From Pseudomonadota bacterium (lineage in GTDB: Bacteria; Pseudomonadota; Gammaproteobacteria; Steroidobacterales; Steroidobacteraceae), in assembly GCA_021777555.1 (NCBI GenBank), contig JAJYDK010000003.1, forward strand, positions 62,001-126,000: 64,000 nucleotides of DNA, in the 5' to 3' direction. Both the position numbers and the translations under genes were made by a program. The notes beneath the pieces were generated by a model. The model saw only the letters and a list, made by a program, of their open reading frames with translations, did no database searches and had not been told where the DNA came from. Shown piece after piece: positions 19,613 to 36,909 of the stretch (position 1 is its first letter; every line of letters starts with the position of its first letter).

Positions 19613-19704
19613 GGGCGGCCTCGGCGCGCTCCGCCACGCCTTCGCCGCGCACTGCCGCCCTCCGGCATGCGGCTCGGGCCATTGGCGCGGCGCGCGCATT
19701 CCGA

Positions 19705-19723
19705 TATTATCATAGTCATTATA
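19705..19723. promoter_or_regulatory. AT-rich inverted repeat operator, copy 1 (acyl-CoA dehydrogenase promoter)
   Basis: TATTAT-N7-ATTATA, one mismatch from TATTAT-N7-ATAATA. It stands out in GC-rich surroundings and overlaps a TATAAA -10 box at 19720-19725 in front of the acyl-CoA dehydrogenase gene. Similar repeats precede three other genes of the same locus. Confidence 0.55.
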
Positions 19724-19760
19724 AAATACGCCGGTCCGGCGCCTGTCGGGGGAAGATCCG

Positions 19761-20924
19761 ATGGACTTCGCGCTCACTGAAGAACAGCAGCTCATCGTCA
19801 GGACAACCGGCGAGTTCGTGCGCCGGGAGCTCTACCCGCACGAGGCGGAGGTGGAGGAGTCGGGGTGTCTGCGCGAGGAGCTCCGCCGCGAGCTCAAGGC
19901 CAAGGCCATCGGCGCCGGCCTCCATGCAGCCAACATGCCGGCGGAGGTCGGCGGCGGCGGCCTCGATCCGGTGAGCTGGGTGTTGTACGAGAAGGAGCTC
20001 GGGCGCACGAGCTACGCGCTCCACTATTCATGCGTCGCCCGCCCTTCGAACATTCTGCTCGCCTGCGAGGGAGAGCAGCGCGAGCGGTACCTGCTGCCGA
20101 CGGTGCGCGGCGAGCGCACCGAGTGCCTCGCCATGACCGAGCCGGACGCGGGCTCGGACCTGCGCGGCATGAAGACGACCGCGGTGTCAAAGGGCGGAGA
20201 CCTCGTGCTGAACGGCACGAAGCACTTCATCAGCCACGCGGACCACTCCGATTTCGTGATCCTGTTCGCCGCCTCCGGAGAAGAGAGCTCCGCTCGTGGC
20301 CCGCGCCGTCTCATCACGGCGCTGCTCATCGACATGGGCACGCCGGGATTCGAAGTCCTGCCGGGCTACCGCAACGTGTCCCACCGCGGTTACACCAACA
20401 GCATCCTGAAGTTCACCGACTGCCGGGTGCCCAAATCGGCGGTGCTCGGGGAGCTGCACAAGGGCTTCGAAGTCGCCAACACCTGGCTCGGCGCGACCCG
20501 GCTGCAGGTGGCGGCCAACTGCCTGGGACGGGCGGAGCGGGCGCTCGATCTCGCCAGGCAATGGGCGGTGGACCGCGTGCAGTTCGGCCAGCCCATCGGC
20601 AGATTCCAGGGCGTGGCGTTCAAGCTCGCCGACATGGCGGTCGAGCTGCGCGCCGCGGAGCTGCTCACCCTGGAGGCCGCCTGGAAGCTCGCTCAGGGCA
20701 GCGCGACGGATCTCGACATGTCGATCGCCAAGCTCAAGGCGACCGAGATGCTCGCCATGGTGGCCGATGAGGCGCTGCAGATCCATGGCGGCATGGGTCT
20801 GATGACGGAGCTGCCTCTGGAGCGTATCTGGCGCGACGCGCGCATCGAGCGCATCTGGGACGGCACGAGCGAGGTGCAGCGTCACATCATCTCGCGCGCA
20901 TTATTGCGGCCGCTCGGCGGCTAG
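19761..20924 (+). CDS. Acyl-CoA dehydrogenase (candidate gamma-butyrobetainyl-CoA dehydrogenase)
   Basis: A 387-residue flavin enzyme that introduces a 2,3 double bond into an acyl-CoA. Family marks include MTEPDAGSDLRGMKTTA (FAD/substrate loop), KHFISHADHSDFVILFA, and the C-terminal IWDGTSEVQRHIISRAL. In the medium-chain family the catalytic base is the Glu of YEGTS; here Asp stands at that place (WDGTS). The gene faces a CaiD-like hydratase and CoA-ligase operon and shares their operator type. A role on gamma-butyrobetainyl-CoA or a similar quaternary-amine CoA ester is inferred from that context only. Confidence 0.88.
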   Translation: MDFALTEEQQLIVRTTGEFVRRELYPHEAEVEESGCLREELRRELKAKAIGAGLHAANMPAEVGGGGLDPVSWVLYEKELGRTSYALHYSCVARPSNILLACEGEQRERYLLPTVRGERTECLAMTEPDAGSDLRGMKTTAVSKGGDLVLNGTKHFISHADHSDFVILFAASGEESSARGPRRLITALLIDMGTPGFEVLPGYRNVSHRGYTNSILKFTDCRVPKSAVLGELHKGFEVANTWLGATRLQVAANCLGRAERALDLARQWAVDRVQFGQPIGRFQGVAFKLADMAVELRAAELLTLEAAWKLAQGSATDLDMSIAKLKATEMLAMVADEALQIHGGMGLMTELPLERIWRDARIERIWDGTSEVQRHIISRALLRPLGG

Positions 20925-20940
20925 CGGGCGGGCCGCGCGG

Positions 20941-21732
20941 TCAGCGGCCTTTCCAGACGGGCTTGCGCTTCTCGGCGAACGCGCTCGCCCCTTCTTTGAG
21001 ATCTTCCGAGCGGATGACGCGCTGAACGGCCTCCAGGCTGTCGTGCAGCTCGAACGCCTGGTGCTCCGCGACCCTCTCGGTGTGGCGCAGGAGCTGCTTG
21101 ATGGCCGGGAACAGCAGCGGCGGCCCGTCGGCGAGCTGGCGCGCGATCTCGCGCGCCTTGGCGAGAGCCCCGCCGCGCGGCACGACGTGGTTCGCGAGGC
21201 CCCAATGCTTTGCCTCCGCGGCGTCCATCCATCGGCCGGTCATCAGGAACTCGACGGCGACGTGGTAGGGAATGCGGCGCGGCAGCTTGATCGTGCCGGC
21301 GTCCGCCAGCACGCCCACATTGATCTCCGGCAGCGCAAAGCGGGCATGCTCTTCCATCACGATGATGTCGCACCCGAGCACGATCTCGAACCCTCCGCCG
21401 CAGGCGATGCCATTGACCGCCGCGATGACCGGCTTGTCGAGATTGCGCGGGTGGTTGAGTCCGCCGAACCCGCCGCTCCCCCAGTCCTCGTCGGAGCGCT
21501 CGCCGGCGGCCGCCGCCTTCAAGTCCCAGCCGGGGCTGAAGAAGCGCTCGCCGGCGCCGGTGACGATCGCGATGCGCAGCTTCGGATCGTCGCGAAACGC
21601 GCCAAACACTTCGTTCAGGCGCCGGCTGGCGCCGAGGTCGATCGCGTTCGCCTTGGGCCGATCGATCCACACTTCGATGACCGCTCCGTCCGTGACAGTG
21701 CGGATGCCGTCTCTTTCGCTGGTGTCGGACAT
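20941..21732 (-). CDS. caiD: Enoyl-CoA hydratase, CaiD-like (candidate crotonobetainyl-CoA hydratase)
   Basis: A 263-residue crotonase-fold enzyme. From memory it is strikingly like E. coli CaiD: IDRPKANAID near the start, FFSPGWDLKAAAAGE, NLDKPVIAAVNGIACGGGFE (oxyanion-hole region) and the C-terminal AFAEKRKPVWKGR all have close CaiD equivalents. CaiD interconverts crotonobetainyl-CoA and carnitinyl-CoA. The start lies 2 bp after the ligase stop with a GAGGAT site inside the ligase end, so translation is coupled. It converges with the acyl-CoA dehydrogenase gene. Confidence 0.85.
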   Translation of the reverse strand: MSDTSERDGIRTVTDGAVIEVWIDRPKANAIDLGASRRLNEVFGAFRDDPKLRIAIVTGAGERFFSPGWDLKAAAAGERSDEDWGSGGFGGLNHPRNLDKPVIAAVNGIACGGGFEIVLGCDIIVMEEHARFALPEINVGVLADAGTIKLPRRIPYHVAVEFLMTGRWMDAAEAKHWGLANHVVPRGGALAKAREIARQLADGPPLLFPAIKQLLRHTERVAEHQAFELHDSLEAVQRVIRSEDLKEGASAFAEKRKPVWKGR

Positions 21733-21734
21733 GT

Positions 21735-23819
21735 TCAGTTATCCTCGATAAGGCGGATCAATGCGTCCACCGCCACGGCGCCGCGGCCCGAGGGGCGAAC
21801 GATGACAGGGTTGACGTCGAGCTCGAGCAACCGGTCGAGGTTGTCCTGCGCATAGCGGGCGCACGCCAGGGTGGCTTGGGCCAGCGCCGGAATGTCCCCC
21901 GGCGGGCGTCCGCGGTAGCCGCCGAGGAGCCTCCCCACGCGCAGCCCGGCGACTGCGCGCTCGATATCGGCGGATGTGAAGGGCGGCAGCAGGATGGCCG
22001 TGTCCTTGAGCAGCTCCGTGAGGACGCCGCCTGCGCCGAGCACGAGCAGTTGACCAAACTGGGCGTCCGCTTTGATGCCGACCAGGATCTCGGCGACGCC
22101 ATCGGTAATCATGTGCTCCACGAGCAAGCGGTCGGACAGTCGCGACAACCACTTGGCCGCCGCGGCGGCCTCGGCCGGGGTCCGCACGTTGAGCGCCACG
22201 CCACCTACGTCCGATTTGTGCTCGAGCGCTGCTCCAGTGGCCTTGATCACGACTGGAAATCCGATCGCCGCCGCCGCATCGGCCGCCTCTTCGGGCGCCA
22301 CCAGGCGCGACGCCGGGATCGGCACCCCGAGAGCCGCGAGCGCCGCCTTGCCTTCGCATTCGGGCAGCGTGCGCGCCGCCGGCTCGCCGGAGGATGGATC
22401 CGGCGGCGCTCTGCGCCGCGGCTTGAGCAGCTCCACGCGGCTGCCGCGCTGCCATGCTTCGCCGATACCCGCGGCCCCAGCGAGGGCTTCGAGCGCCTCG
22501 CGCTGGCCCTGCAGTGGGGCGATTCCGCACGCGAGGCACCGGGTGCGAGCTTCCTGCGGCAGCGACTCGGGGAGCGAGCTGATGAGCGCTGCTCGGCCGG
22601 CGCCCTCGCCACCGGAGGCCTGAAACTCCTCGATGACCGCGAGATAACTCTGTGGATCGGCTTCCTCGGCGGGCGGACAGTCGACCACCAGTCCGACGGC
22701 GTCGTAGCCGGAGCGGCGCACCTCCGTGAACAGGGCATGGAGCCGCGGCCGGTCGAACCAGATGTGCGTGTGAAAATCGAACGGGTTGGAGAGTGTGACC
22801 CGCTCCCCGAGCAGCTCGCGCAGCCGCGCCGTGGGTCCCGCTGGCATGGGCGCAAAGGCGAGATCGAGCCCCCGGGCGGTATCGGCGGCCATCGCCATGT
22901 CCCCGCCCGAGGCGCCCATCAACAACACGTTGCGCCCGGGCAGCGGTCCGCGGACGTGCAACAGCTTGAGCGTCTCGCAGAGCGTTGCCAGCGTATCGCA
23001 GCGTGCGAGCCCGCTCTGCCTGCAGAACGCGTCGAAGGCGGCGTCGGCCCCCGCGAGCGAGCCGGTGTGGCTGTGCGCCGTACGCGCCGCTGCGACCGTG
23101 CGTCCAGCCTTCACCAAGGCAATGGGCTTGCCAGCGGCTCTGGCGCTATCCGCCGCGCGCGCGAAGCGCTCGGCGTCCTTCACTCCCTCGACGTACAGAC
23201 CGAACGCGGTGACGCGGTCATCCCCGGCAAGCCGCTCGATGAGATCCTCGACGGCAAGGCGTTCCTGGTTGCCGACCGTGAGCACGTAGCCGAGGGGAAG
23301 CGAGCGGCGGTTGAACAGCAGGTTGAGCGCAATCGTGCCGCTCTGGCAGATGAGCGCCACGCCGCGCTCGGGTGGGGCGCCGACCAGCTGGTCCGGCCAG
23401 AGCGCGGCGCGATCGAAGAAGTTGATGAAGCCGTAACAGTTGGGGCCGAGATACGGCAAATCTCCCGCCGCGGCGGCGAGCTCCCCGGCGAGACGTGTCC
23501 CCTCGGGTGTGCCCGTCTCGGCAAAGCCCGACGCGAAACACACGAATCCGCCGCCTTCGCGCCGCGCCAGCGCAGCGGCGATTGCGGGCGCTTCACCTGC
23601 CGGCGCCGCGATGAACGTCGCGTCGGGCGCCTCGGGCAGTTCTTCGATCGAGCGGTAATAACGCTGCCCGGCGCTCGCTGGCCGGCTCGGATGCACGCGC
23701 CACACCGGGCCGCGAAAACCCACTGCGCGGCATGCCGCCGCCGCGGCATCCGCCCAGACGCCGCCGCAGAGCGCGATGCTGCGCGGCGCCAGCAGGCGCT
23801 CCATCGCGTCCTCGCTCAT
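21735..23819 (-). CDS. Acetate--CoA ligase (ADP-forming)-type acyl-CoA synthetase
   Basis: A 694-residue single-chain member of the NDP-forming CoA ligase family. It has an N-terminal CoA-binding Rossmann domain, two succinyl-CoA-ligase-like domains with the probable phospho-His segment SHTGSLAGADAAF, and a C-terminal ATP-grasp domain (FPVVIKATGAALEHKSDVGGV; ending ELDVNPVIV). It forms an operon with the CaiD-like gene and is expected to activate carnitine, crotonobetaine or gamma-butyrobetaine to the CoA ester. That is contextual; it could act on another acid. ATG at 23819 with a G-rich site upstream. Confidence 0.88.
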   Translation of the reverse strand: MSEDAMERLLAPRSIALCGGVWADAAAAACRAVGFRGPVWRVHPSRPASAGQRYYRSIEELPEAPDATFIAAPAGEAPAIAAALARREGGGFVCFASGFAETGTPEGTRLAGELAAAAGDLPYLGPNCYGFINFFDRAALWPDQLVGAPPERGVALICQSGTIALNLLFNRRSLPLGYVLTVGNQERLAVEDLIERLAGDDRVTAFGLYVEGVKDAERFARAADSARAAGKPIALVKAGRTVAAARTAHSHTGSLAGADAAFDAFCRQSGLARCDTLATLCETLKLLHVRGPLPGRNVLLMGASGGDMAMAADTARGLDLAFAPMPAGPTARLRELLGERVTLSNPFDFHTHIWFDRPRLHALFTEVRRSGYDAVGLVVDCPPAEEADPQSYLAVIEEFQASGGEGAGRAALISSLPESLPQEARTRCLACGIAPLQGQREALEALAGAAGIGEAWQRGSRVELLKPRRRAPPDPSSGEPAARTLPECEGKAALAALGVPIPASRLVAPEEAADAAAAIGFPVVIKATGAALEHKSDVGGVALNVRTPAEAAAAAKWLSRLSDRLLVEHMITDGVAEILVGIKADAQFGQLLVLGAGGVLTELLKDTAILLPPFTSADIERAVAGLRVGRLLGGYRGRPPGDIPALAQATLACARYAQDNLDRLLELDVNPVIVRPSGRGAVAVDALIRLIEDN

Positions 23820-23841
23820 TCCGGGAACCCCCCTCTTTAAA

Positions 23842-23860
23842 TATTATGGGAAGAATAATA
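23842..23860. promoter_or_regulatory. AT-rich inverted repeat operator, copy 2 (CoA ligase-caiD promoter)
   Basis: TATTAT-N7-ATAATA with perfect 6-bp arms, 23 bp upstream of the ligase start. The 95 bp between this site and the end of the MttB-family gene show no further element. Confidence 0.6.
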
Positions 23861-23955
23861 CGAAATGGCCGAGGCGCGCACCACGGAGGCCGGGCCAGGC
23901 CCGCCCGGCATGACGGGCGGCGCTGGTCATGCCCGGACCTTCGACGGCGCATCCG

Positions 23956-25485
23956 TCAGCGCCGCTGGCGCCTCGAGCGCCGCCCCTCGCGCGGGCGAGG
24001 CGCGACGCTCGGCTGCTCCGCCCTCGGCAGTGTCTCGGGCAGGGGCTCATCGCGTGCCATCCCGCCCTTGATGATCCGCATCATCTCCTCATCGATCCTT
24101 GGATCGAGGGGCGGCGAGACGTACGCGCCGAGCAGGCGCTCCACTTCCTCGCGTACCCGCTGATCGAGGGTCATGCCGCCTCCCTGAAGCCATGTTTCCC
24201 GGTTGATCCGGTCGAACACCATGCCCGGCAGATAGAGCTCACTCGGCCAGTGCTTCAGGGTGTGTCCGGCGGTGAGCAGGTGCTTCTCGCGCAGCAACTG
24301 CCGCACCAGATCGCGGGTCGGAAGGTCCTCCTGCACGTCGAAGTCCCGGCAGAAATGCAGCGCCTGCCCGCACAGCTCGTCATCGAAAACCAGCTTGCCG
24401 AGGCTGAAGGTGAGGACGTAATCGAGCATGCCGGGGCCGGAGACGGAATTGATTCCGCTCACGGCCGCGAGCAGCGCCCCGGCGAAGGTCTCGGCCCCCG
24501 CCTGAGCGTCGAGGAACTTGCCTTCGCTGAGGGCCATGTAGCCTTGCGTCGGCAGATCGAGATGCTTGGCCACTTCGACGTACGCCACGTTCAGGTGCAG
24601 CGTCTCGATGGCCGCCATCGGTGACATGGCCGTCTTCATGTGGAAGGTGGCCGGGGCGCCGCCGAAGAGCACCGGGGTGCCGGGCTTGACGATCTGCGCC
24701 ATGGTCAATCCGGCCAACACGTCGGCGACGTGCATCACGGTTGCGCCCACCAGCGTGACCGGCGCGATGAGGCCCATCAGCGTCACCGGCACGATCTCGA
24801 TCGGTATGCCGAATTCCGCGCAGTCGAGCAGGTTCTGGCAGGAGTCCTCGCTGTACCGGTAGAAGCCCGTTGCGGTGACCGTGAAGATCGACATCGGACG
24901 GGATACCAGGTCGGCCTGGTCGCGACGGAACAGCTGCATCATCTGTGCCATGCGCACGACACCGTGCTCGGAGAACGCTCCCGAGACGATGGGCTTGAGT
25001 GTATTGGTGAGCAGCAGATAGAGGCGCCAGGCGTCCGAGATCATCGGATCGATGTCGTTCGTGGAGAAGGCAGTGGCCAGGTAACCGAGATTCTTCAGGC
25101 CATCGGCGACGCGCACGTACTCGATGAAATCGCGTGTGTTTGAGGGACGGGTCTCTGCGGTGCGATGGTCGAGCACGTGCAGACCGCTCGAGCCGGGGAC
25201 GAAGTGCACCTTGTCGCCGCCGAGCTCGGTATAGGGCGAGCCATCGCGGTCGTAGAGCGCAAAGCGCTTCGGGGCCGTCTCGATGGCGCGGTCCACGACT
25301 TCCGGCGGAAAGAGAATGCGCTCCGCGTCATCGGCGGTGCGCGCCAGTTTCAATCCGTGCTCGAGCAGCCGCTCCCGCAGCCGAGCCCCGCGGACCTCGA
25401 TGCCGATTTCGGCCAGGATCCGCTTGGCCTCATCGAGGATGGGGCCGATGAGGTGATTCGGAACGACGCGAAGCTGCGGTCTCAT
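23956..25485 (-). CDS. MttB-family (trimethylamine methyltransferase superfamily) corrinoid-dependent methyltransferase
   Basis: A 509-residue TIM-barrel methyltransferase of the MttB superfamily. Typical segments include [10 protein letters not shown] near the start, [39 protein letters not shown] and [14 protein letters not shown]. The frame is open with no in-frame amber codon, so it belongs to the non-pyrrolysine branch. Members of that branch demethylate glycine betaine (MtgB), proline betaine (MtpB), carnitine (MtcB) or gamma-butyrobetaine (MtyB). Its place in a carnitine-type locus points to one of these. No corrinoid protein or methyl-tetrahydrofolate partner is in the window. The last 30 residues are a basic, disordered tail. 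Confidence 0.85.
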
Positions 25486-25521
25486 CGAAGCGGCACTCCA
25501 TCCTTCGGGGCGGGGCTCGTA

Positions 25522-25537
25522 TTGAACAAGCGTACAA
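25522..25537. promoter_or_regulatory. BetI-box-like inverted repeat upstream of the MttB-family gene
   Basis: TTGAAC-N4-GTACAA (one mismatch) lies between the BetI-like regulator gene and the methyltransferase gene. It looks like the TTGAAC-type half sites described for BetI. This is different from the TATTAT repeats, so two regulators may share the locus. Confidence 0.45.
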
Positions 25538-25589
25538 TAGCGCCCAAACGGCCGTCAACCAGGGGTCGCCCCGTTGCCGCGAGCGTGCG

Positions 25590-26258
25590 TCAGCGCCCCT
25601 CGCGAGGCCCCGGCCGATGCGTGAGAAGGCTCGGGAAGGCGCCCGAGCACAGCGCGTGGGTCCAGTCCTCGCAAAGCGCCACGGCGTCCGCGGGTTTGAA
25701 GGCGCGGGGATTCAGGCTTGCCTCGATCCACAGCCCATCGAGGAGAGCCGCGAGAGCGATGCCGGCCGGCTTCAGCCTGAAGGCGGGGACCCCCTCGGTC
25801 CCACGCAGTTGACCGAGAAGGGACTCGAGCGCGGCCCGATACGCGACATACGTCCGGTCCTGCACGGCCCGCACGGCGGCGTCGTGCGCGCTCATGCTCC
25901 AGAAGACGAGCCATGTGCCGAAGAGGTCCGGCTCGAGCAGCGCCGGTGCGAACGACGCCTCGAAGAAGCGCCGCAACCGCTCGCGCGGTCCGGCTCCAGG
26001 CTGTCGCGCCTGCTGTTGGATGGATCGCAGGAGCGACATCGCCAGGGATTCGTAGGAAGCGGCCACCAGGGCGGAGATGCTGGGAAAATGATGGGTGATC
26101 AGGCCCGCCGATACGCCCGCTTCGGCGGCTATGCGTCTCGCGGACGCGCCGTCGTGTCCGCGTTTGCGCAAACACGACAGCGTCGCTTCGATCAGGGCTT
26201 CGCGGCGCACCGTCGGCGGAGCGCGGCGGAATTTCGGCGTGTGCTGCTCTTTGGCCAT
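25590..26258 (-). CDS. TetR-family regulator, BetI-like
   Basis: A 222-residue regulator. The N-terminal helix-turn-helix has SARRIAAEAGVSAGLITHHFPSISALV. The C-terminal ligand domain shows the BetI pattern: TWLVFWSMSAHDAAV and AALLDGLWIEASL, as in the choline-responsive repressor BetI. It is the first gene upstream of the methyltransferase gene (104 bp gap with a BetI-like box). A quaternary-amine inducer such as choline, betaine or carnitine is likely but not shown. Confidence 0.85.
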   Translation of the reverse strand: MAKEQHTPKFRRAPPTVRREALIEATLSCLRKRGHDGASARRIAAEAGVSAGLITHHFPSISALVAASYESLAMSLLRSIQQQARQPGAGPRERLRRFFEASFAPALLEPDLFGTWLVFWSMSAHDAAVRAVQDRTYVAYRAALESLLGQLRGTEGVPAFRLKPAGIALAALLDGLWIEASLNPRAFKPADAVALCEDWTHALCSGAFPSLLTHRPGPREGR

Positions 26259-26364
26259 CTCGGGTCCGGTCTGTGGAGGGGCACTCCGCGGCGCGCCATG
26301 CCCGCCTGCGGATCATACCGTGCCACGGACAGTGCAGACAGGTCGCCCCGATCCATGAGGTGCT

Positions 26365-27852
26365 TCAGCCCAGGGTGGATTGCAGGCCCGCGGGACCCGA
26401 TTGCGCCACCGCCGAGTCGGGATCGCCGATATCGATCGGCGGCTCGAGGCCGATGTCCGCCGCCGCCGCCGCGCGGGCGTCGGCCTCGAGGTCGATGGTG
26501 CGGCAGACGAGCAGATAGACGGCCGCGGATACCGGCAAGCCCACCAACATGGACAGATCGGCACCGCCGAGCCAGCGGGCAACGGGCCCGGTGTAGAGCC
26601 CGGTACTGAAGAAGGGGATCATGGCGGCGAAGCCGGCTGCGTAGGCGATCAGACCGTGCCAGTTCCAGCGGCCGTACATGCCGTGGGGATTGAAGATCTC
26701 GCGCACCGAGTAGTGCCCCTTGCGCACCAGGTAGAAATCCACCAGGTTGATCGCCGTCCAGGGCGTGAACAGGTACAGCAGCACGGACAGCAGGTCCGAG
26801 AAATGGCGCAGAAAATCGCTCGAGGAGTCGAGCGCGATCGCGGTGGAGACGATGGCCGCGGCGAGGAGGCTCCCGGCGCGCTTGCCGGCGCTGCTCTTGA
26901 GCGGCTTGAAGGTGTCCCAGACGCTGAGCAGCGTGAGTGAGGCGCCGTAGAAGTTGAGCGCCGCGATGGTCAGCAGACCGAGCAGCGCCCCGATGAGCAC
27001 CAGCGTGCCGAGGCCCGGGAAGATGCCGTTCGCGGCCCGATCGAGGGCCGCGGGGACATCGAGCTGCGGGAACACCGCGGCGGCGATGCTGCCGATCAGC
27101 ATCATCCAGGCGCCGCCGACGAAGGCGCCAAGGTAGGTCCACCAGAACGAAGCGCGGATACTGACCTCACGGGGCAGGTAGCGCGAATAGTCGGAGACGT
27201 AGATCGACCAGGTGAGTTGATAGGAGGCGGCCGCCAGCAGCTCCGTGAGGAACGGCGTCAGGCGAAAGCTCTCCCAGTTCCATTGCCCCGCGGGGACCCT
27301 CAGCAGGAACAGGGCGCTCACCGTGAATGCGGTGAGGATCGCGATCATGAGAAAGGCCACGGTGCGTTGTGCGAGGTGTATGGTGTCGTAGCCGAGGGTG
27401 GCGATCACGGCGGCGAGCGCCGCGAAGCCGATCAGGCTCGCGGGCGAGTCCTCTGACACGAAGCCGGTGAGCTGATGCAGCGCCTGGACGGCGAGCACCT
27501 GGTTGAAAGAGTTGTAGCCGACGTAGGTCACGAGGGCGAACGCCCAGACGAGCAGCGCGCCGACGTAGCCGAACTGCGGCCGCGACTGGATCATCTGCGG
27601 CAGTCCGAGCTGCGGCCCCTGGGCGGAGTGGAACGCCATGAAGAAGGTGCCGAGGGCGCAGCCGAGCACGACGGCCACCGCGGTCCACAGGAGGTTGCCT
27701 CCGAGGGCGATGCCGAGCACGCCGACCGCGAGGGTCGCCAGGTGCGCATCGCCCGAGAACCACACGGGCCAGAGATGCCAGACCTTGCCGTGCCGCTCGG
27801 CGAGCGGCACGTACTCGATCGAGCGTCTCTCGAGGAAGGTGCTGCGAACCAT
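26365..27852 (-). CDS. NCS1-family permease (cytosine/allantoin/thiamine-type transporter)
   Basis: A 495-residue inner-membrane transporter with about 12 hydrophobic segments. NCS1 marks include WSIYVSDYSRYLP and the N-terminal region with LWPVWFSGDAH. The family normally takes up nucleobases, hydantoins, allantoin or thiamine. Here it is divergent from the carnitine dehydrogenase fusion and shares a TATTAT-type operator with it, so a quaternary amine or related compound is the likely cargo by context. ATG with GGAG 7 bp upstream. Confidence 0.88.
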   Translation of the reverse strand: MVRSTFLERRSIEYVPLAERHGKVWHLWPVWFSGDAHLATLAVGVLGIALGGNLLWTAVAVVLGCALGTFFMAFHSAQGPQLGLPQMIQSRPQFGYVGALLVWAFALVTYVGYNSFNQVLAVQALHQLTGFVSEDSPASLIGFAALAAVIATLGYDTIHLAQRTVAFLMIAILTAFTVSALFLLRVPAGQWNWESFRLTPFLTELLAAASYQLTWSIYVSDYSRYLPREVSIRASFWWTYLGAFVGGAWMMLIGSIAAAVFPQLDVPAALDRAANGIFPGLGTLVLIGALLGLLTIAALNFYGASLTLLSVWDTFKPLKSSAGKRAGSLLAAAIVSTAIALDSSSDFLRHFSDLLSVLLYLFTPWTAINLVDFYLVRKGHYSVREIFNPHGMYGRWNWHGLIAYAAGFAAMIPFFSTGLYTGPVARWLGGADLSMLVGLPVSAAVYLLVCRTIDLEADARAAAAADIGLEPPIDIGDPDSAVAQSGPAGLQSTLG

Positions 27853-27891
27853 GTCGTTTACTCCGGCGCCCCCGGCATGCGCCCAGCCTGT

Positions 27892-27916
27892 TTATATTAT
27901 GATAAAGATATTATAA
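27892..27916. promoter_or_regulatory. AT-rich inverted repeat operator, copy 3 (permease / carnitine dehydrogenase)
   Basis: TTATATTAT-N7-ATATTATAA, 8 of 9 arm positions pair. It overlaps a TATAAA -10 box (27912-27917) for the rightward gene. The 10-mer ATTATAAAAT here is identical to that at 19718-19727. It serves the divergent permease and dehydrogenase promoters. Confidence 0.6.
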
Positions 27917-27960
27917 AATTACGCCGCCGGCCGCAAGGCGCCGGCGGGAGGGTGAAGCAG

Positions 27961-29466
27961 GTGGTCGAAAACATGAGACGTGTCAGAACGCTGGGCTTGT
28001 TGGGCACCGGAGTGATCGGCGGCGGCTGGGCGGCGCGCGCGCTGCACTTCGGGATAGACGTGATCGCCGCGGACGTCAAGCCGGAAATGGAAGCATGGAT
28101 CCGCGGTGCGGTCACCAACGCCGAAAGCGCCCTGGCGCGCCTGACGAGCGCCCCCTTGCCGGCCAAGGGCAGGCTGTCGTTCACGACCGACCTCGGGGCA
28201 ATGGCCCGCCAGGTGGATTTCATCCAGGAGAACATACCCGAGCAGCTGGAACTCAAGCAGCGTGTGCTGGCGGAGGCCAGCCGGCACGCGCCCGCAGATG
28301 TCGTGATCGCTTCGAGCACTTCGGGGCTCATGGCCACGGACCTGCAGCGCGACATGCGGTTTCCGGAGCGGCTGCTGGTGGCCCATCCGTTCAATCCGGT
28401 GTATCTGCTGCCGCTGGTGGAGCTGGTGGGCGGCCATGCCACCTCGCAGCGCGCGATCGATGCCGCTGCCGCGTTTTACACGTACATCGGCATGCATCCG
28501 CTGCGCGTGCGCAGCGAGGTGCCCGGCCATCTGACCGATCGGCTGCAGGAGGCGCTCTGGCGTGAAATCCTGCATCTCGTCAACGACGGCGTCGCCACGA
28601 CGGGAGAGCTCGATGAGTCCATCGTGTACGGCCCGGGGCTGCGCTGGGCCGCGATGGGTACGAACCTGATCTATCATCTGGCCGGTGGCGAGACGGGCAT
28701 GCGCCACATGTTGCGGCAGTTCGGGCCCTGCCTCAAATGGCCGTGGACCAAGCTCGAGGCGCCGGAGCTCACCGAGGCGCTCATCGACCGCATGGTCGAG
28801 GGAACCCAGGCCCAGGCGGCCGGCCGCTCGATCCGCGAGCTCGAGCGGCTGCGGGATGATTACCTGGTGGCCATCCAGCAGGTGCTCAGGCAGTTCGATA
28901 TCGGCGCGGGCTCGACGCTGCGCGCGCTCGAGGAGCGCCTGTATGCCGAGAGCGCCGCGGCGCTCGAAGCCGCCGGCGGGGGCGGTGGGCGAGCCGCGCA
29001 ACCCCTCGAGACGCTCGAGACCGAGGTCCGCCCCGAGTGGATCGATCACAACGGGCGCATGGCCGAATCGCGCTGCCTGCAGGTTTTCGGTGACGCTGCG
29101 GAAGCATTGTTCCGCCATGCCGGGGTGAGCGCCCACCGCGGCGCAGGGCGGGCGTTCTTCTTCCCGGTCGAGAGCCACGTGATCCATCATGCGCCGGCGG
29201 GCGCGCTCGAGGCGATTTGCGTGACCACCCAGGTGCTCGGGGTCGATGGCAATGGGGCACATCTGCTCCATATCCTCAAGCGCCGCAACGACGGCCGCCT
29301 GATTGCCACCGGCGAGCAGCGCTACGAGTATGCCAGCGCCTCCGAAGGGGCGGCTGCGCCCATGGAGGCGGCGCTTCGCACCAAGCTCGAGGGGCTGCGC
29401 GCCGCTCACGCCGGACTGCCGGCTCCCGCTCAGGCCGGCCGTCATGTAGTCTTCCCGGGCAAATGA
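27961..29466 (+). CDS. L-carnitine dehydrogenase fused to betainyl-CoA thioesterase-like domain
   Basis: About 501 residues in two parts. Residues 1-330 form a 3-hydroxyacyl-CoA-dehydrogenase-like NAD enzyme (GLLGTGVIGGGWAARA; VAHPFNPVYLLPLVELVGG; YGPGLRWAAMG). Residues 355-490 form a hot-dog thioesterase (RPEWIDHNGRMAESRCLQVF). This fusion and length match L-carnitine dehydrogenases of rhizobia and pseudomonads, which oxidise L-carnitine to 3-dehydrocarnitine and then hydrolyse betainyl-CoA. GTG at 27961 is chosen because GGGAGG lies 9 bp upstream; an ATG at 27973 has a poor site. The product fits the BKACE enzyme at 35.9-36.8 kb. Confidence 0.9.
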   Translation: MVENMRRVRTLGLLGTGVIGGGWAARALHFGIDVIAADVKPEMEAWIRGAVTNAESALARLTSAPLPAKGRLSFTTDLGAMARQVDFIQENIPEQLELKQRVLAEASRHAPADVVIASSTSGLMATDLQRDMRFPERLLVAHPFNPVYLLPLVELVGGHATSQRAIDAAAAFYTYIGMHPLRVRSEVPGHLTDRLQEALWREILHLVNDGVATTGELDESIVYGPGLRWAAMGTNLIYHLAGGETGMRHMLRQFGPCLKWPWTKLEAPELTEALIDRMVEGTQAQAAGRSIRELERLRDDYLVAIQQVLRQFDIGAGSTLRALEERLYAESAAALEAAGGGGGRAAQPLETLETEVRPEWIDHNGRMAESRCLQVFGDAAEALFRHAGVSAHRGAGRAFFFPVESHVIHHAPAGALEAICVTTQVLGVDGNGAHLLHILKRRNDGRLIATGEQRYEYASASEGAAAPMEAALRTKLEGLRAAHAGLPAPAQAGRHVVFPGK

Positions 29467-29488
29467 TGCCTGGGAGGGCGCAAGAGCC

Positions 29489-30172
29489 ATGCCGAAGATC
29501 GTCGATCATGCCGAGCGGCGCGACCAGATCGCCCTCGTCGCCTGCCGCGTCGTGGCCAAGCACGGCTTCGAACAGACCACCATCGTGCGCATCGCGCGCG
29601 AGGCGGGATACACCACCGGCATGGTGGCCCATTACTTCGACACCAAGCAGGACATCATCGTCGCGGCGCTGCGCCTCATTCTGCGGCGGATCGAGGAACG
29701 CCTCACCCGGCAGGCCGAGGCGGCCGAGCAGCCGGACCTTCTCGGCCTGCTCACCGAGGCGCTGCCCATCGACGAGACCCGTTTCACGGAGTGCGCCTTC
29801 TGGACCGCCTTCTGGGGACAGGTCCTCGCGGACAAGCGCCTGAAGCGGATCAATGCCTGGCTGCATCGGGAATACATGCGCCTCTTCGAGCGCTGCCTGG
29901 CGCAGAGCTGGCCGCAGTGGGCGAATTGGTCGGCCGACACGCGCGACCAGGTCCTGAGGTCCGTGGTGACCTTCATCAACGGTCTGACGGCGAGCGCGGT
30001 GGCGAGCCCGGGGGACTGGCCGCCCGAGAAGCAGACTGGCCAGCTGCAACTGCAGCTGCGACTGATCGAGCTGTGGGCCGGCCAGACCGGCTCGGCCGCG
30101 GTGCCGGTGCGGCGGCGATCGCTCTCGCGCTCCGCGCCTCCGGCGGGCCGCCGAAAGCACACCGCCACGTGA
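29489..30172 (+). CDS. TetR-family regulator (BetI-related)
   Basis: A 227-residue regulator, 22 bp after the carnitine dehydrogenase gene on the same strand and probably co-transcribed with it. The helix-turn-helix is TIVRIAREAGYTTGMVAHYFDTKQDIIV. The C-terminal domain has a CAFWTAFWGQ segment comparable to the BetI ligand domain. A low-complexity basic tail of about 30 residues ends it. It is a candidate for the protein that reads the TATTAT-N7-ATAATA operators. Confidence 0.85.
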   Translation: MPKIVDHAERRDQIALVACRVVAKHGFEQTTIVRIAREAGYTTGMVAHYFDTKQDIIVAALRLILRRIEERLTRQAEAAEQPDLLGLLTEALPIDETRFTECAFWTAFWGQVLADKRLKRINAWLHREYMRLFERCLAQSWPQWANWSADTRDQVLRSVVTFINGLTASAVASPGDWPPEKQTGQLQLQLRLIELWAGQTGSAAVPVRRRSLSRSAPPAGRRKHTAT

Positions 30173-30187
30173 GGAGGATCCGGCGCG

Positions 30188-31942: not shown

Positions 31943-32005
31943 GGGAGCCTTGGCTCTCTCTCGCGAGGTCCGGGCCGTCCCTGGCCTCCACCGCGCGCGA
32001 GGCGC

Positions 32006-34369
32006 TCAGAACGATCGCGAATACTCCACGGTCACGGTCGCCGGACGGAGCGTGGCGACCTGGGGAATGACGGTCCCCGTGGCATCGTACTGCGCATAGC
32101 CCACATAGCCGATGTCGCCCACATTGGGCTTGGAGTTGCTCAGGTTGGAGCCGTTCAGCGACAGCTCGGACTGTCCCCAGTCGATCCCGATGCGCGCATT
32201 GACCAGTGAGAAGCTCGGCCGGGTCGCGATCAGGCCGGCGCCGCCGTTCAACTCCGACTGGCTGTTTCCCGTGTAGCTGTAGTCGGCGGACAGGAAGCCG
32301 CTCACCCGGGTCGTGATCGGCCGGCGGTAGATCGCTCCGGCCGAGGCGGTCCAGGCCGGGACGCCCATCAGGCGCGAGCCCTGGGTGAGTCCGACCAGGC
32401 CGAGCGCCCCGGGGTCGGTGAGGTCGGTCTTCTCGTACCCCACACCGAGGCGCACCTGCAGGCGCGGCACGAGGTAGCCCATCGCCTGGAACTCGGCGCC
32501 ATTGATCTTGGCCTCACCGCCGTTGATATCGAAGTACGCACCGCACGGCAGCGCCACCTGCTGCTGAATGTTCTTCCAGTCTATGTGGAAGCCGTCTGCC
32601 GTGATCAGCAGCCCCGGGTTCGAGAGCTGAACTTTGGCGCCCGCCTCATACGTCCAGAGGGTGTCCGAGCGCAGCTGGGTGATGTCGGTCACCGGGAGAT
32701 TCGGCTCCGCGCAGAACGGTGCGTAGGCCTGCGCATTGCCGGCACGGAAGCCCTTCGCGGCCGATACGTACAGGAGCGTCGACTGGCTCGCCTGGTAGGA
32801 CAGCGCCACCTTCGGATCGAGGCCACTCTGGCTGTTCGACTGCGGATCGGTCGTCGTAGGGCCGAAGTTCATGAAGCCATCCGCGGTGTAGTCGGTGTGC
32901 TGCCGCAGCCAGTACTGGCGTGCCCCGAGTGTCAGGGTGTAGCGGGGCAGGAACCTCCAATAGACCTGTCCGAACAGCGCGTAGTCCTTCTCCCGGCCCG
33001 GATTGCGTTGCGTCCAGATGAGGTCGTTGGGCCACGGACCGACCACCGCATTGTTCACGGTCGCCGCGACCAGGCCGTTCGCGTAGGTCGGCGGGATGTA
33101 GAACAGTGCGCGGGAGTTCGACACGAACAGTCCGAACGTGCCGCTGATGCCATGCACCGGCTTGAAGGAGAAGCGCGTCTCGTTGTTGAACTGGTTGAAG
33201 TAATGATCGCCCTGCCAGAAATACGGCTGCGGCGGCAGGCCCGAGACCTGATAGTAGGAGGCGAAGATCTGCTGCGTGCCGTAGGTCGAGTCCTCGATGT
33301 CCTCCGTCTGGCGGTGGAAGTAGCTCGTGGCGGACACGAGATCCCAGCCGTCGCCGCGGTATTTCAGGGTGAGCGAGGCCATCTGCCAGCGGTCGAATGC
33401 CGTCGGCTGGACGTCGAACGCCCGATTGAGCGTGTACACGGGCGTGAAATCCGGCAGCGGCGCGAACGTCGCCGGGAAGCCATGGTACTTCTCTTCCTGG
33501 GTCATCAGGAGGAGCGTGGCATCCAGACGATTCGAGAGCCGCCACAGGGTGTTGATGCTGCCGCCATAGGCCGTGATGGCCCCCTGGTCGCCGACGCTGC
33601 TGCGCGGCACGTCGAGGAAGGGATTGGTGACGCCGGGGCTCGCCGGATCGGTGGGATAGGTGCGGGTCAGGTAGCCGGCATCGTGGTTATAGAAGCCGAC
33701 GATGCGCATCGCCAGCACGTCCCGCACGATCGGCAGGTTCACCACGGCATTGACGCCGTAATCGGGGCTGCCGCCGCCGGAGGTGGCGCCCGCATCCACG
33801 GCCGTATGCCCCTGGAAAGTCTCGAGGTCTGGCTTGTTGGTGACCAGTTTGACGTTGCCGCCGAGGGAGCTCTCGCCATAGAGCGTGCCTTGGGGACCCT
33901 CCAGCACCTGGATGTTGTCGATATCGACGATGCGCGGATCCACCGAGCTCGGCATGGGCGTGTCATCGATGTAGAAGCCCGTGGCGCCGGAGGTTCCGAA
34001 CAGGTTCTGGCCGGTGATGCCGCGAATCGCGACGGTGCGCGCGTCGGCGAAACCGGTCGGACCGGAGCCATAGGTGAAGGACAGGTTGGGGGTCTTGGTG
34101 GCGTAGTCGGCGAAGGACTTGATGTGAAAGTCGTGCAGCGCCTGCGGCGTGAAGGCAGTGATGCTTTCCGGAACGCGCGCCAGGGGCTGGCTGAATTTCT
34201 GCGCGGTGACCACGATTTCCCCGAGTACGCCGCCCGATGCCGGGGATGCGGGTCCCGGAGCCGGATCCTGCGCCAGAAGCGGCCCTGCGGCACCGAGAGC
34301 GGCGACGAACAGGGCGCAGAGTGAGGCCTCTGCGTGCCGGTTCCAGGATTTCATTCTCAAGAGCTTCAT
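32006..34369 (-). CDS. TonB-dependent outer-membrane receptor, in the BKACE operon
   Basis: A 787-residue receptor starting MKLLRMKSW with a GGGGAG site. It has a signal peptide ending LAQ, a TonB-box-like VLGEIVVTAQ, plug motifs (VAIRGITGQNLFG; IQVLEGPQGTLYGESSLGGNVKLV) and a barrel ending in Phe (VEYSRSF). The plug resembles FecA-like/FepA-like receptors of unknown ligand seen in sphingomonads and xanthomonads. It lies 49 bp downstream of an exported hydrolase gene in the run headed by the BKACE gene. This suggests that its ligand feeds the quaternary-amine pathway. Confidence 0.9.
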   Translation of the reverse strand: MKLLRMKSWNRHAEASLCALFVAALGAAGPLLAQDPAPGPASPASGGVLGEIVVTAQKFSQPLARVPESITAFTPQALHDFHIKSFADYATKTPNLSFTYGSGPTGFADARTVAIRGITGQNLFGTSGATGFYIDDTPMPSSVDPRIVDIDNIQVLEGPQGTLYGESSLGGNVKLVTNKPDLETFQGHTAVDAGATSGGGSPDYGVNAVVNLPIVRDVLAMRIVGFYNHDAGYLTRTYPTDPASPGVTNPFLDVPRSSVGDQGAITAYGGSINTLWRLSNRLDATLLLMTQEEKYHGFPATFAPLPDFTPVYTLNRAFDVQPTAFDRWQMASLTLKYRGDGWDLVSATSYFHRQTEDIEDSTYGTQQIFASYYQVSGLPPQPYFWQGDHYFNQFNNETRFSFKPVHGISGTFGLFVSNSRALFYIPPTYANGLVAATVNNAVVGPWPNDLIWTQRNPGREKDYALFGQVYWRFLPRYTLTLGARQYWLRQHTDYTADGFMNFGPTTTDPQSNSQSGLDPKVALSYQASQSTLLYVSAAKGFRAGNAQAYAPFCAEPNLPVTDITQLRSDTLWTYEAGAKVQLSNPGLLITADGFHIDWKNIQQQVALPCGAYFDINGGEAKINGAEFQAMGYLVPRLQVRLGVGYEKTDLTDPGALGLVGLTQGSRLMGVPAWTASAGAIYRRPITTRVSGFLSADYSYTGNSQSELNGGAGLIATRPSFSLVNARIGIDWGQSELSLNGSNLSNSKPNVGDIGYVGYAQYDATGTVIPQVATLRPATVTVEYSRSF

Positions 34370-34418
34370 GTCGTCTCCCCCGTTGGATTCGCGTGATCCG
34401 CTGTTGTCGTGCCGCCCG

Positions 34419-35372
34419 TCAGCCGGCGCCGTAGCGCCGTACGTCCGCAGCGGGATTGAGAAACGCGTTGATGACCGCGGCGCAGCCTCGCGGGCTCTCC
34501 CAGAATGGGTTGTGACCGAGTCCCGGGAAGACCACCACCTTGGCGTGCGGCAGTGCCCGCTCGAGCGAGCGGCGCATGGGCGGGAGCATGATCGGGTCCT
34601 TACTGCCCCAGATGAGCAGGGTCGGCGCGGTGAGCTGGGGCAGAGTGCGCGCGAGGTCGCCGAGGTCTCCCAGACCCTCATTGAGAACCGCGAGCCACAC
34701 CCCGAGGGGAATCGCCGCGGCATTGCGCCGCTCGCGCCGCAGAAAGCGCCGATCGACGGGCGTGGGTGAGGACCACCACTCGCGCATGAATTTCGAGTCG
34801 GGATCGAGGGGCTCTTTGAGGCGGCGGATCTGTGCCGTCCAGTCGTATTGCGGGCCAGCGGCTTTCGGTGGGGCGGCCGCTGTCGAGGAGATCAGGACGA
34901 CCCGCAAAGTGCGCGCCGGCCAGAGTTCCGCGAAGGTCTGCGCGACGATGCTCCCGAGGGAATGGCCGACGATATCGGCGCGGCGCACGTGCAGCCTGTC
35001 GAGCAGCAGCTTGATGTCATAGGCGAAGTCGTACCGTGTGTAGCAGCACTCGGGCTTGCTCGACTCACCGTGCCCCCTCAGATCGACGAGTATGAGGCGG
35101 AAGCGCTTCGACAGGTAGGGCACGAGCGACGCCCAGTCGAGATCGCTGTCGGTGTAGCCGTGGATCAGGACCACGGGCGTGCCGGTGGGATTTCCGAGCG
35201 GCACGTAAGCCATGGAAATGCCGTCCGGCAACGCAACGACCCGACGCGCAGCATCCAGGGGCCGCAGATGGATTCGAGGCGGCGCGGCGCCCGCGGCGGC
35301 ATTGGCCACCAGGGCGAATGCGATGGCAGCGAGGGGCGCGAACGGTGCTCGCCGACGGGGCGGAGTATTCAT
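34419..35372 (-). CDS. Exported alpha/beta hydrolase
   Basis: A 317-residue alpha/beta hydrolase. The nucleophile elbow is GHSLGS, the oxyanion region VLIHGYTDSDLDW, and the likely catalytic His lies in FPGLGHNPFWE. The signal peptide (FAPLAAIAFALVANAAAGAA) puts it in the periplasm or beyond. The ATG overlaps the stop of the thioesterase gene by 4 bp, so the two are translationally coupled. An esterase acting on carnitine esters or related conjugates would fit the operon, but this is inference. Confidence 0.85.
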   Translation of the reverse strand: MNTPPRRRAPFAPLAAIAFALVANAAAGAAPPRIHLRPLDAARRVVALPDGISMAYVPLGNPTGTPVVLIHGYTDSDLDWASLVPYLSKRFRLILVDLRGHGESSKPECCYTRYDFAYDIKLLLDRLHVRRADIVGHSLGSIVAQTFAELWPARTLRVVLISSTAAAPPKAAGPQYDWTAQIRRLKEPLDPDSKFMREWWSSPTPVDRRFLRRERRNAAAIPLGVWLAVLNEGLGDLGDLARTLPQLTAPTLLIWGSKDPIMLPPMRRSLERALPHAKVVVFPGLGHNPFWESPRGCAAVINAFLNPAADVRRYGAG

Positions 35373-35845
35373 GACCGGCTCCTCAACTCCATGCGGCGCG
35401 AGCCCGGACCTGCGATCGGGCCGCTCCACTGCGTTCGGAATTGCTCGATGGCCCGCAGGACGTGGGGCGGGAAGGGTGCGGTCGCGGGCGTCTCCCCCTG
35501 CGCGATGTGCAGAAGCATGACTTCGGCCGTGGCGGCGGGCTCTGCCCGGCCCTCGCACACGAGCTGCAGGGCCACATGGATTCGCTTCGCATCGCTGCCG
35601 AGAATGGCCGCGCTGACTTCGACCACGTCGCTCCGGTGCACTTCCCTCAGGTAGTGGAGGTGCATCTCGACGGTGTAGAGCGTGCAGCGCGTGCGCTCCC
35701 GGTAGGGCGCATCGAGCCCCAGGCGATCCATCAGCGCGTCGGTCGCGAGGCTCAGGATGAGCCCATAGTAGGCATCGCGCAGATGACCGTTGTAGTCGAT
35801 CCATTCCGCGGCGATCGGCGTCTTGTAGAGTGCTGTGGCCGGCAT
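35369..35845 (-). CDS. Hot-dog thioesterase (betainyl-CoA thioesterase-like)
   Basis: A 158-residue single-domain 4HBT-type thioesterase. The segment AAEWIDYNGHLRDAYYGLI closely resembles the active region of betainyl-CoA thioesterase and of the C-terminal domain of the fusion at 27.96-29.47 kb. It lies 11 bp after the BKACE gene, whose product would be betainyl-CoA. So the locus has two versions of the same step, one free and one fused. Confidence 0.85.
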   Translation of the reverse strand: MPATALYKTPIAAEWIDYNGHLRDAYYGLILSLATDALMDRLGLDAPYRERTRCTLYTVEMHLHYLREVHRSDVVEVSAAILGSDAKRIHVALQLVCEGRAEPAATAEVMLLHIAQGETPATAPFPPHVLRAIEQFRTQWSGPIAGPGSRRMELRSRS

Positions 35846-35856
35846 CGGTGCCGTGC

Positions 35857-36756
35857 TCAGCGTATTTTCAGCCGCTCGCGCGCCTGGGCGGGCGAGAGGA
35901 TGCGGGCCCCCATGGCCTCGATGATGGTGCGCGCCCGCTCGACGAGTTGCGCGTTGCTCGCATAGACGCCGCGGCTGAGGTAGAGATTGTCCTCGAGCCC
36001 CACCCGGACATTGCCGCCGAGCAGGATGGATTGGGCCACCCAGGGCATCTGCATGCGGCTGATGGCAAATGACGTCCAGATGGCGTCGGCCGGCAGGGTG
36101 TTGACCATGGCCAGCAGATGGCCGACGTCGGCTGGCACTCCGTACGGGATGCCCGCGCACAGCTGGATGAGCGCGGGCGCGGGGATCAGGCCCTCCTCGA
36201 TCATCTTGCGCACGAACCAGAGGTTCCCGGTATCGAATACTTCGAGCTCGGGCTTCACACCGAGGTCGCGCAGTATGGCGGCGCCGCGCCGCAGATAGTC
36301 CGGAGTCGACACGTATGCGCGGTTGCCATCGCCGAAGTTGAGGCTCCCGCAGTCCAGGGTGGCGATGTCGGGACGGTACAGCCCCTCGTGACAAAGATCG
36401 ATCACGTGCTGCATGCGCCGCTCCTGGCTGACGAAATCGGTGCCCGGCGCGGGAGTGTCGTCGAGGCCGTGCTCGCCGACGCAGATGTAGCCACCCATGC
36501 CGCACGTCAGGTTGACGATCACATCAACACCGCTTTCGCGGATGCGCTTGACCACCTCGCGGTAGTGGCGAGTCTCCATGCTGAAGGCGCCGGTGTCGGG
36601 GTCGCGCACGTGGATGTGCACGATGGCCGCGCCGGCTCTGGCGGCGTCGACGGCGGTTGCGGCGATCTGTTCCGGGGTGACCGCGCAATGGGGGCTCTTG
36701 GTGACCTTGGTGTCGTCGCCCGTCACGGCGCAAGTGATGATGACGTCGTGGTTCAT
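35857..36756 (-). CDS. Beta-keto acid cleavage enzyme (BKACE; candidate dehydrocarnitine cleavage enzyme)
   Basis: A 299-residue TIM-barrel enzyme of the DUF849/BKACE family. Marks are VIITCAVTGD at the N-terminus, the metal-binding HIHVRDPDTG near residue 46, and PELEVFDTGNLWFV. In carnitine users this family condenses 3-dehydrocarnitine with acetyl-CoA to give betainyl-CoA and acetoacetate. The thioesterase directly downstream and the dehydrogenase at 27.96 kb support that substrate. ATG with a GAGG site. It is first in a run of five genes. Confidence 0.9.
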   Translation of the reverse strand: MNHDVIITCAVTGDDTKVTKSPHCAVTPEQIAATAVDAARAGAAIVHIHVRDPDTGAFSMETRHYREVVKRIRESGVDVIVNLTCGMGGYICVGEHGLDDTPAPGTDFVSQERRMQHVIDLCHEGLYRPDIATLDCGSLNFGDGNRAYVSTPDYLRRGAAILRDLGVKPELEVFDTGNLWFVRKMIEEGLIPAPALIQLCAGIPYGVPADVGHLLAMVNTLPADAIWTSFAISRMQMPWVAQSILLGGNVRVGLEDNLYLSRGVYASNAQLVERARTIIEAMGARILSPAQARERLKIR

Positions 36757-36792
36757 GATGCAAGACCTCGCGGTGGCCCCCAGCGGCTTTAA

Positions 36793-36813
36793 ATATTATT
36801 GACATGATAATAT
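36793..36813. promoter_or_regulatory. AT-rich inverted repeat operator, copy 4 (BKACE operon promoter)
   Basis: ATATTAT-N7-ATAATAT with perfect 7-bp arms, 37 bp upstream of the BKACE start. It is the best of the four copies in the locus. Confidence 0.65.
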
Positions 36814-36909
36814 AGACCGCGAAATTGGGAGCTGCAATAGGCGCAGGGGCGGGGAGCAGCCCCGGGGCGCCCGGAGCGGCGCCGTGATCGGAGGGGGCGA
36901 GCGGCGGTC

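Follow-up and report, generated by a model that had tools for sequence, protein, structure and literature searches.

In Pseudomonas aeruginosa, the conversion of carnitine to glycine betaine and the hydrolysis of short-chain acylcarnitines are reported to be controlled by CdhR, an AraC/GATase-1 type regulator of the caiX-cdhCAB-hocS operon (PMC5806209). The final steps from carnitine to betaine have been reported in the same species and, with a dual-function dehydrogenase, in Sinorhizobium meliloti, the latter enzyme being described as bifunctional, i.e. as a dehydrogenase-thioesterase (PMC12482172). For the regulator BetI, two proteins with different boxes have been reported in one organism (PMC12442346). 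By analyzing 64,000 nucleotides (the window: positions 62,001 to 126,000 of contig JAJYDK010000003.1, assembly GCA_021777555.1) from a Steroidobacteraceae member, a soil-type bacterium with a genome of 4.02 Mb on 117 contigs, we found a cluster of putative gamma-butyrobetaine and carnitine genes in which four promoters carry the AT-rich inverted repeat TATTAT-N7-ATAATA. As judged from sequence comparison, these repeats are very likely the operators of one local repressor over the gamma-butyrobetaine and carnitine genes, namely TetR2, a TetR family protein encoded in the cluster itself.

The presence of such a repeat at four promoters had been pointed out in a preliminary description of this DNA and was confirmed here, as two exact and two one-mismatch sites (operators A to D, Table 1). 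The positions then given for A and B (19705 and 23842) were right, while those for C and D (27892 and 36793) were off by 3 bases and 1 base, respectively. Two repeats had also been said to overlap TATAAA, and this is seen at 19720-19725 and 27912-27917, where the right arms of operators A and C, respectively, are overlapped. Operator C sits in the spacer and -10 of the sequence TGTTTA-N17-TATAAA (27889-27917, read by eye). Shuffled versions of the window had no exact repeats and a mean of 0.56 sites with at most three mismatches, versus 7 observed, a number that includes overlapping registers. Throughout the 4.02-Mb genome the sites with no or one mismatch are exactly these four, compared to a single one for the control used in the operator counts, i.e. 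the TATTAT-N7-ATAATA pattern read backwards. Random occurrence in unrelated promoters, named in the preliminary description as something that would speak against a regulon, was thus not what this genome-wide scan found. Twelve sites have two mismatches. Five of these are registers of the four operators, and the seven elsewhere equal the seven of the backwards control, for which reason they were rejected as additional regulon members; out of three that were inspected, one lies within a called gene, one off a gene start and one in a promoter gap by a GntR/FCD gene. A different AT-rich palindrome in the same genome, ATATCATCTGATATACAATAT (L142:4031-4049), is situated beside a GntR/FCD regulator gene and is perhaps that regulator's own site. 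A promoter scan gave 3 hits versus 1.7 in shuffles.

Related loci around the carnitine dehydrogenase (CDH) gene were collected by taking the best 80 of 363 relatives, which were divided into the window's lineage (L013-L073, n=61) and Alphaproteobacteria (L074-L092, n=19). The nearest ones stem from metagenome assemblies labelled Gammaproteobacteria or merely Proteobacteria, with a few Steroidobacteraceae. Regions with fewer than 60 upstream bases were excluded from the operator counts, which for CDH concerned one locus (L058). Upstream of CDH, a site with one mismatch was found in 11 of 60 lineage loci, with at most two in 52 and with at most three in 58, versus 0%, 0.25% and 3% of the shuffled regions at the same limits. 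The gene for the beta-keto acid cleavage enzyme (BKACE) had an exact site in 24 of the 29 loci with enough sequence, and 28 have one if up to three mismatches are allowed. Most columns in the arms hold 1.3-2 bits (one has 0.66) and most flanking columns less than 0.8 bits; at CDH, a TTA before the left arm and an AAA after the right arm, both outside the searched letters, are conserved as well (1.2-1.9 bits). No site with up to three mismatches was found in 17 CDH and 16 BKACE upstream regions of alphaproteobacterial orthologs, a count from which L074 and L075 (guanine-cytosine content 0.30-0.31) were excluded.

The operator is also nearly confined to the position upstream of the first gene of a run. 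Inner genes lack it, i.e. CaiD in 31 out of 31 loci and TetR2 in 57 out of 57, and the thioesterase has it in one of 33 (L062, three mismatches), a locus in which no BKACE was found. The acyl-CoA dehydrogenase (1/52) and the coenzyme A (CoA) ligase (2/31) carry the operator in those loci in which they are the first gene of a run. In loci with CDH, TetR2 and acyl-CoA dehydrogenase in a single run, CDH has the operator upstream, and in those with BKACE, thioesterase, ligase and CaiD in a single run, BKACE does. In the window, as in its closest relatives, the acyl-CoA dehydrogenase and the ligase start their own runs, each with its own operator: operator A is also found upstream of the acyl-CoA dehydrogenase in L014 and L126, and operator B is exact also in L013, L014 and L126. 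Taken together, these patterns are those expected of a conserved operator, as far as sequence can tell.

Several further genes are joined to the operator in relatives. A hydrolase-TonB receptor pair follows it in L123, L125, L131 and L132, with hydrolases 66, 63, 60 and 66% identical to that of the window, respectively, and in the first two of these loci a TetR2-NCS1 pair lies behind on the opposite strand. L127 has it upstream of a TonB receptor, with one mismatch. In L126, L128 and L133, it separates the ligase from a divergently oriented gene for an aldehyde dehydrogenase or a PotF-like protein, and in L024 and L028, BKACE from an aldehyde dehydrogenase. In the genome G003 (L126:8543-17197 and L127), where ligase and divergent aldehyde dehydrogenase have operator B in common, PotF-like and permease genes are nearby, together with a Rieske oxygenase (best NCBIfam match GbcA, below cut-off), an aminotransferase and a GcvT-like gene. 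Another configuration was observed in G010 (L124:4846-7707), i.e. an exact operator followed by a PotF-like binding protein, a TmpA-like 2-oxoglutarate dioxygenase and an HD-domain protein, a unit possibly for trimethylaminoethylphosphonate use under the same repressor. This dioxygenase had by eye been taken for a gamma-butyrobetaine hydroxylase, which was rejected as it scores better as TmpA (350 versus 257 bits, both below cut-off).

TetR2 (29489-30172) has a BetI-type domain and is the best candidate for the regulator, judging from gene neighborhood and co-occurrence. It lies behind CDH in 57 of the 61 lineage loci; out of the four exceptions, two are contigs ending inside the dehydrogenase gene, while L060 and L061 have neither TetR2 there nor an operator. 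In 37 genomes of the same genus, the window's own included, TetR2 was called in 23 (E <=1e-30), all of which hold at least one exact operator type. The exact BKACE-type site occurs in 19 of these and the exact CDH-type site in 20, the latter partly by construction, since this pattern was written from the relatives' own sites upstream of CDH, so that the weight lies in the genomes without it. Among the 14 genomes without TetR2, an exact operator occurs in one (G025, 71% complete). Fisher's test for TetR2 versus operator gave p=1.4e-5 for the BKACE type and p=1.1e-7 for the CDH type, kinship being ignored. In a wider draw, TetR2 (E <=1e-40) was found in 9 out of 147 genomes of the order, all from the same family, and the exact CDH-type pattern in 19 out of 150 genomes from this family, where the control gave no matches; the two draws overlap partially. 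Seven of the nine TetR2 genomes have the exact CDH-type pattern, and it is missing from G082 and G099, whose TetR2 proteins show the lowest identity (60 and 48%, respectively). In G034, an NCS1-TetR2 pair with an operator is found on one contig and CDH on another, where it keeps its operator with no adjacent TetR2, an arrangement that fits action in trans. The most diverged TetR2 proteins (45-47% identity) are those of L039 and L041, in which the palindrome upstream of CDH is altered to TATATTGT...CAATAAATA, with three mismatches; this suggests co-evolution of regulator and operator. The preliminary description had a single TetR protein, perhaps the one at 29489, controlling the gamma-butyrobetaine and carnitine set, and this is favored by the conservation at first genes, the co-occurrence of TetR2 and the situation in G034.

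The assignment of TetR2 to the TetR family is based on PF00440 (39.8 bits versus a cut-off of 24), on an all-helical model with a predicted local distance difference test score (pLDDT) of 90.9, and on the top Foldseek matches, which are TetR regulators. Foldseek also matched TetR2 to 4kwa, solved with choline, and to 4nel, the ligand of which is given as N,N-dimethylmet (title truncated), while the better-ranked matches mostly have no ligand in the title. Among 40 aligned TetR2 sequences, F104, W105, W109, Y129 and W141 are invariant, and F108, W124, W147, F162 and W177 nearly so. A palindromic operator is also present at TetR2's own promoter, i.e. operator C before the CDH-TetR2 run, and likewise before the NCS1-TetR2 run in G034.

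As we picture the mechanism, a TetR2 dimer would, when no inducer is present, occupy the AT-rich palindrome at each promoter. It would thereby block the units of acyl-CoA dehydrogenase, CoA ligase-CaiD, NCS1-TetR1-MttB, CDH-TetR2 and BKACE-thioesterase-hydrolase-TonB (predicted transcription units), and through the fourth of these TetR2 would repress itself. In the region of operator C, the arms TTTATATTAT and ATATTATAAA hold TATAAA on each strand, so that the binding of a single dimer might shut both of the divergent promoters. Release would be brought about by a trimethylammonium compound of the route, i.e. gamma-butyrobetaine, carnitine or a close intermediate, which is the class of inducer we infer for TetR2.

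A number of observations weigh against this proposal. Besides the partial circularity of the CDH-type pattern, most of the genomes compared are incomplete metagenome assemblies, and kinship among them means that the counts are not independent events. The arm letters and spacing vary among promoters (ATAATA, ATTATA and ATATTA), so that the true operator appears to be looser than TATTAT-N7-ATAATA. In L128 (G006), the acyl-CoA dehydrogenase starts a run with merely an imperfect AT-rich palindrome (four mismatches), and the second NCS1-TetR2 pair of G001 (L147) has no site of two mismatches or fewer. Furthermore, L018 (7237-8304) and L022 (near 7292) harbor, besides TetR2, a relative of the AraC/DJ-1 regulators (about 32% identity) near the NCS1 gene; as both regulators are present there, a change of regulator may not have been a clean swap. 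The CDH, CaiD and BetI matches are below NCBIfam cut-offs, and a search of the genome with PF02607 for a corrinoid partner of the MttB-family protein matched one 1304-aa MetH-sized frame only.

Could the repeats instead be mere AT-rich -10 regions in GC-rich DNA, with no dedicated regulator? Two of them do overlap TATAAA, and promoters are AT-rich, but no further repeat with one mismatch or none occurs in the genome, conservation of both arms extends past the -10, the 37 genomes have 64 forward matches at this limit versus 12 for the backwards control, and the CDH-type pattern is exact in 20 genomes with no control matches at all, which leaves this explanation next to no credence. That the operators belong to TetR1 (25590-26258) has more in its favor, as this protein is part of the NCS1 unit, which adjoins operator C, and is closer to BetI (NF001978, 110 bits versus 70 for TetR2). 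Nevertheless, relatives of TetR1 with more than 60% identity were found only in L013 and L014 of the 80 loci (the rest of the relatives' genomes was not searched), while most related loci have the operator, and it is TetR2 that co-occurs with it. In addition, the betI box as given in the source cited above, ATTGACG-CGTCAAT (PMC12442346), is by eye unlike the four sites. A very low probability is all we would grant TetR1, which adjoins the cluster in no more than two of the 80 loci besides the window, and which was rejected as the operator's regulator. Inverted repeats in the gaps around TetR1 included no AT-rich palindrome.

Linkage and co-occurrence alone cannot prove binding by TetR2, and an unlinked regulator of another family might recognize the palindromes, TetR2 being connected to them through a shared pathway alone. 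This seems unlikely, considering that the operator is missing from loci without TetR2 (L060 and L061) and has a changed palindrome where TetR2 is diverged (L039 and L041), and that in G034 the TetR2 unit itself has an operator upstream. A regulon that is real but mainly directed at another amine, e.g. a polyamine-derived 4-aminobutyrate compound, or at quaternary amines more broadly, deserves more attention, even if we regard it as rather improbable. The operator does precede PotF-like binding proteins in relatives, with PotI-like permease genes nearby, and the PotF-like gene, TmpA-like dioxygenase and HD protein of G010 point in the same direction. It also precedes aldehyde dehydrogenases, the L024 copy of which passes the cut-off for aminobutyraldehyde dehydrogenase (765 versus 615 bits). 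Trimethylaminobutyraldehyde dehydrogenases, however, are relatives of this aldehyde enzyme, and the CDH-thioesterase fusion, CaiD-like hydratase, BKACE and betaine-type methyltransferase fit a carnitine route best. Control of gamma-butyrobetaine and carnitine genes by TetR2 thus remains the reading that we prefer.

Table 1. Proposed operators and genes of the cluster, with positions in the window.
Feature	Position	Strand	Remarks
Operator A	19705..19723	+	TATTATCATAGTCATTATA; TATTAT-N7-ATTATA, 1 mismatch; upstream of acyl-CoA dehydrogenase
Operator B	23842..23860		Exact TATTAT-N7-ATAATA; upstream of CoA ligase-CaiD unit
Operator C	27895..27913		TATTAT-N7-ATATTA, 1 mismatch; between divergent NCS1 permease and CDH
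Operator D	36794..36812		Exact TATTAT-N7-ATAATA; upstream of BKACE unit
Acyl-CoA dehydrogenase	19761..20924	+	Pfam and NCBIfam acyl-CoA dehydrogenase matches; proposed gamma-butyrobetainyl-CoA dehydrogenase (putative substrate)
CaiD-like crotonobetainyl-CoA hydratase	20941..21732	-	Behind CoA ligase; best NCBIfam match NF002936, 291 bits (cut-off 500)
NDP-forming acyl-CoA synthetase	21735..23819	-	PF13549, PF13607, PF13380; proposed gamma-butyrobetainyl-CoA ligase
MttB-family methyltransferase	23956..25485	-	PF06253, 240 bits; closest solved sequence 9yce, glycine betaine methyltransferase, E 1.6e-49
TetR1, BetI-like regulator	25590..26258	-	PF13977, PF00440
NCS1-family permease	26365..27852	-	PF02133
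L-carnitine dehydrogenase/thioesterase fusion	27952..29466	+	NF005716, 515 bits (cut-off 592), residues 12-499; 3HCDH and 4HBT_2
TetR2, BetI-type C-terminal domain	29489..30172	+	PF00440, PF13977; proposed repressor at all four operators
Protein without Pfam or NCBIfam match, 584 aa	30188..31942	-	Beta-helix-like by eye; end of BKACE-side gene run
TonB-dependent receptor	32006..34369	-	PF00593, PF07715
Alpha/beta hydrolase	34419..35372	-	PF00561
Stand-alone 4HBT thioesterase	35369..35845	-	PF13279
BKACE	35857..36756	-	PF05853, 306 bits; 3c6c, E 4.6e-78; proposed dehydrocarnitine cleavage

The genes named in the preliminary description were right, but it had left out the MttB-family methyltransferase, TetR1, and three of the genes that follow BKACE, i.e. 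those for the thioesterase, the alpha/beta hydrolase and the TonB receptor. By family, the enzyme set from gamma-butyrobetaine and carnitine to betaine is represented in the cluster, comprising CoA ligase, acyl-CoA dehydrogenase, CaiD-like hydratase, CDH-thioesterase, BKACE and thioesterase. Gamma-butyrobetaine would be turned into its CoA thioester, crotonobetainyl-CoA and, after CoA release, L-carnitine, which would then pass via dehydrocarnitine and betainyl-CoA to glycine betaine. We infer these substrates from family similarity, several matches falling below curated cut-offs; among the curated models for CaiD and CDH, NF005471 scored 383 against a cut-off of 414. The alpha/beta hydrolase may, as a guess by analogy, be an acylcarnitine esterase like the HocS described in P. 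aeruginosa (PMC5806209). The NCS1 unit consists of the permease, TetR1 and the MttB-family methyltransferase. In aerobic marine bacteria, proteins with the PF06253 domain of the latter have been linked to the demethylation of betaine (PMC12478193). Three such genes were found in the genome (23956-25485 of the window, G000:C45:957-2471 and G000:C28:47682-49163), with the window's copy being the furthest from the model (240 bits versus 753 and 612). Out of the fetched loci, L013-L016 and L019 alone have the 584-aa protein.

Compared to the described systems, TetR2 is similar to BetI in having a TetR helix-turn-helix together with a BetI-type C-terminal domain (PF13977), in its association with quaternary-amine genes and in the palindromic operators at promoters. 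It differs by scoring below both curated BetI models (TIGR03384, 74.5 versus 201.3; NF001978, 70.3 versus 118), by an operator unlike the betI box as reported, and by the genes concerned, which are carnitine genes; no betA or betB was found among the 13 cluster proteins scanned. CdhR, as described in P. aeruginosa (PMC5806209), likewise governs genes for carnitine breakdown, in the form of an operon, but is a carnitine-responsive AraC-type regulator with GGTCGC half-sites and a 15-bp spacer, whereas the window has a TetR protein and an AT-rich palindrome. No CdhR-type regulator (AraC helix-turn-helix plus DJ-1/PfpI) was found among the same 13 proteins, 19761 to 36756. The alphaproteobacterial carnitine clusters (Sinorhizobium and Pelagibius) likewise bring together BKACE, CDH-thioesterase, acyl-CoA dehydrogenase, CoA ligase and CaiD. 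They differ in being without the operator in the upstream regions counted and without a TetR2 match in the 19 loci. In nine of these, an AraC/DJ-1 (CdhR-like) regulator adjoins BKACE (two checked by Pfam, the others by tblastn), several of the rest being cut-short loci.

The enzymes, the route and local repression by TetR-type proteins are already known; the apparently new part is a TetR regulon for carnitine genes that is specific to this lineage, and no TetR-type regulator of carnitine or gamma-butyrobetaine genes was found among the matches listed in the open-licence literature. It seems likely that TetR2 represents an undescribed BetI-type repressor of a lineage-wide gamma-butyrobetaine and carnitine regulon in Steroidobacteraceae-like gammaproteobacteria, standing where many proteobacteria have a CdhR-type AraC regulator. 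Its operator would stay with the genes through operon rearrangement and, varying from member to member, take in NCS1, TonB and Pot-type ATP-binding cassette transporters, an aldehyde dehydrogenase and TmpA-like genes. For a largely uncultured lineage, this provides candidates for the regulator, operator and genes of carnitine and gamma-butyrobetaine use that can be tested, and the rarity of the operator in these genomes means that further carnitine-linked genes could be found from sequence alone. Provided that the inducer can be confirmed, TetR2 might also be used as a biosensor of the carnitine type. When set beside the CdhR-type systems, the regulon would be an example of one catabolic gene set placed under unrelated regulators in different bacterial classes.

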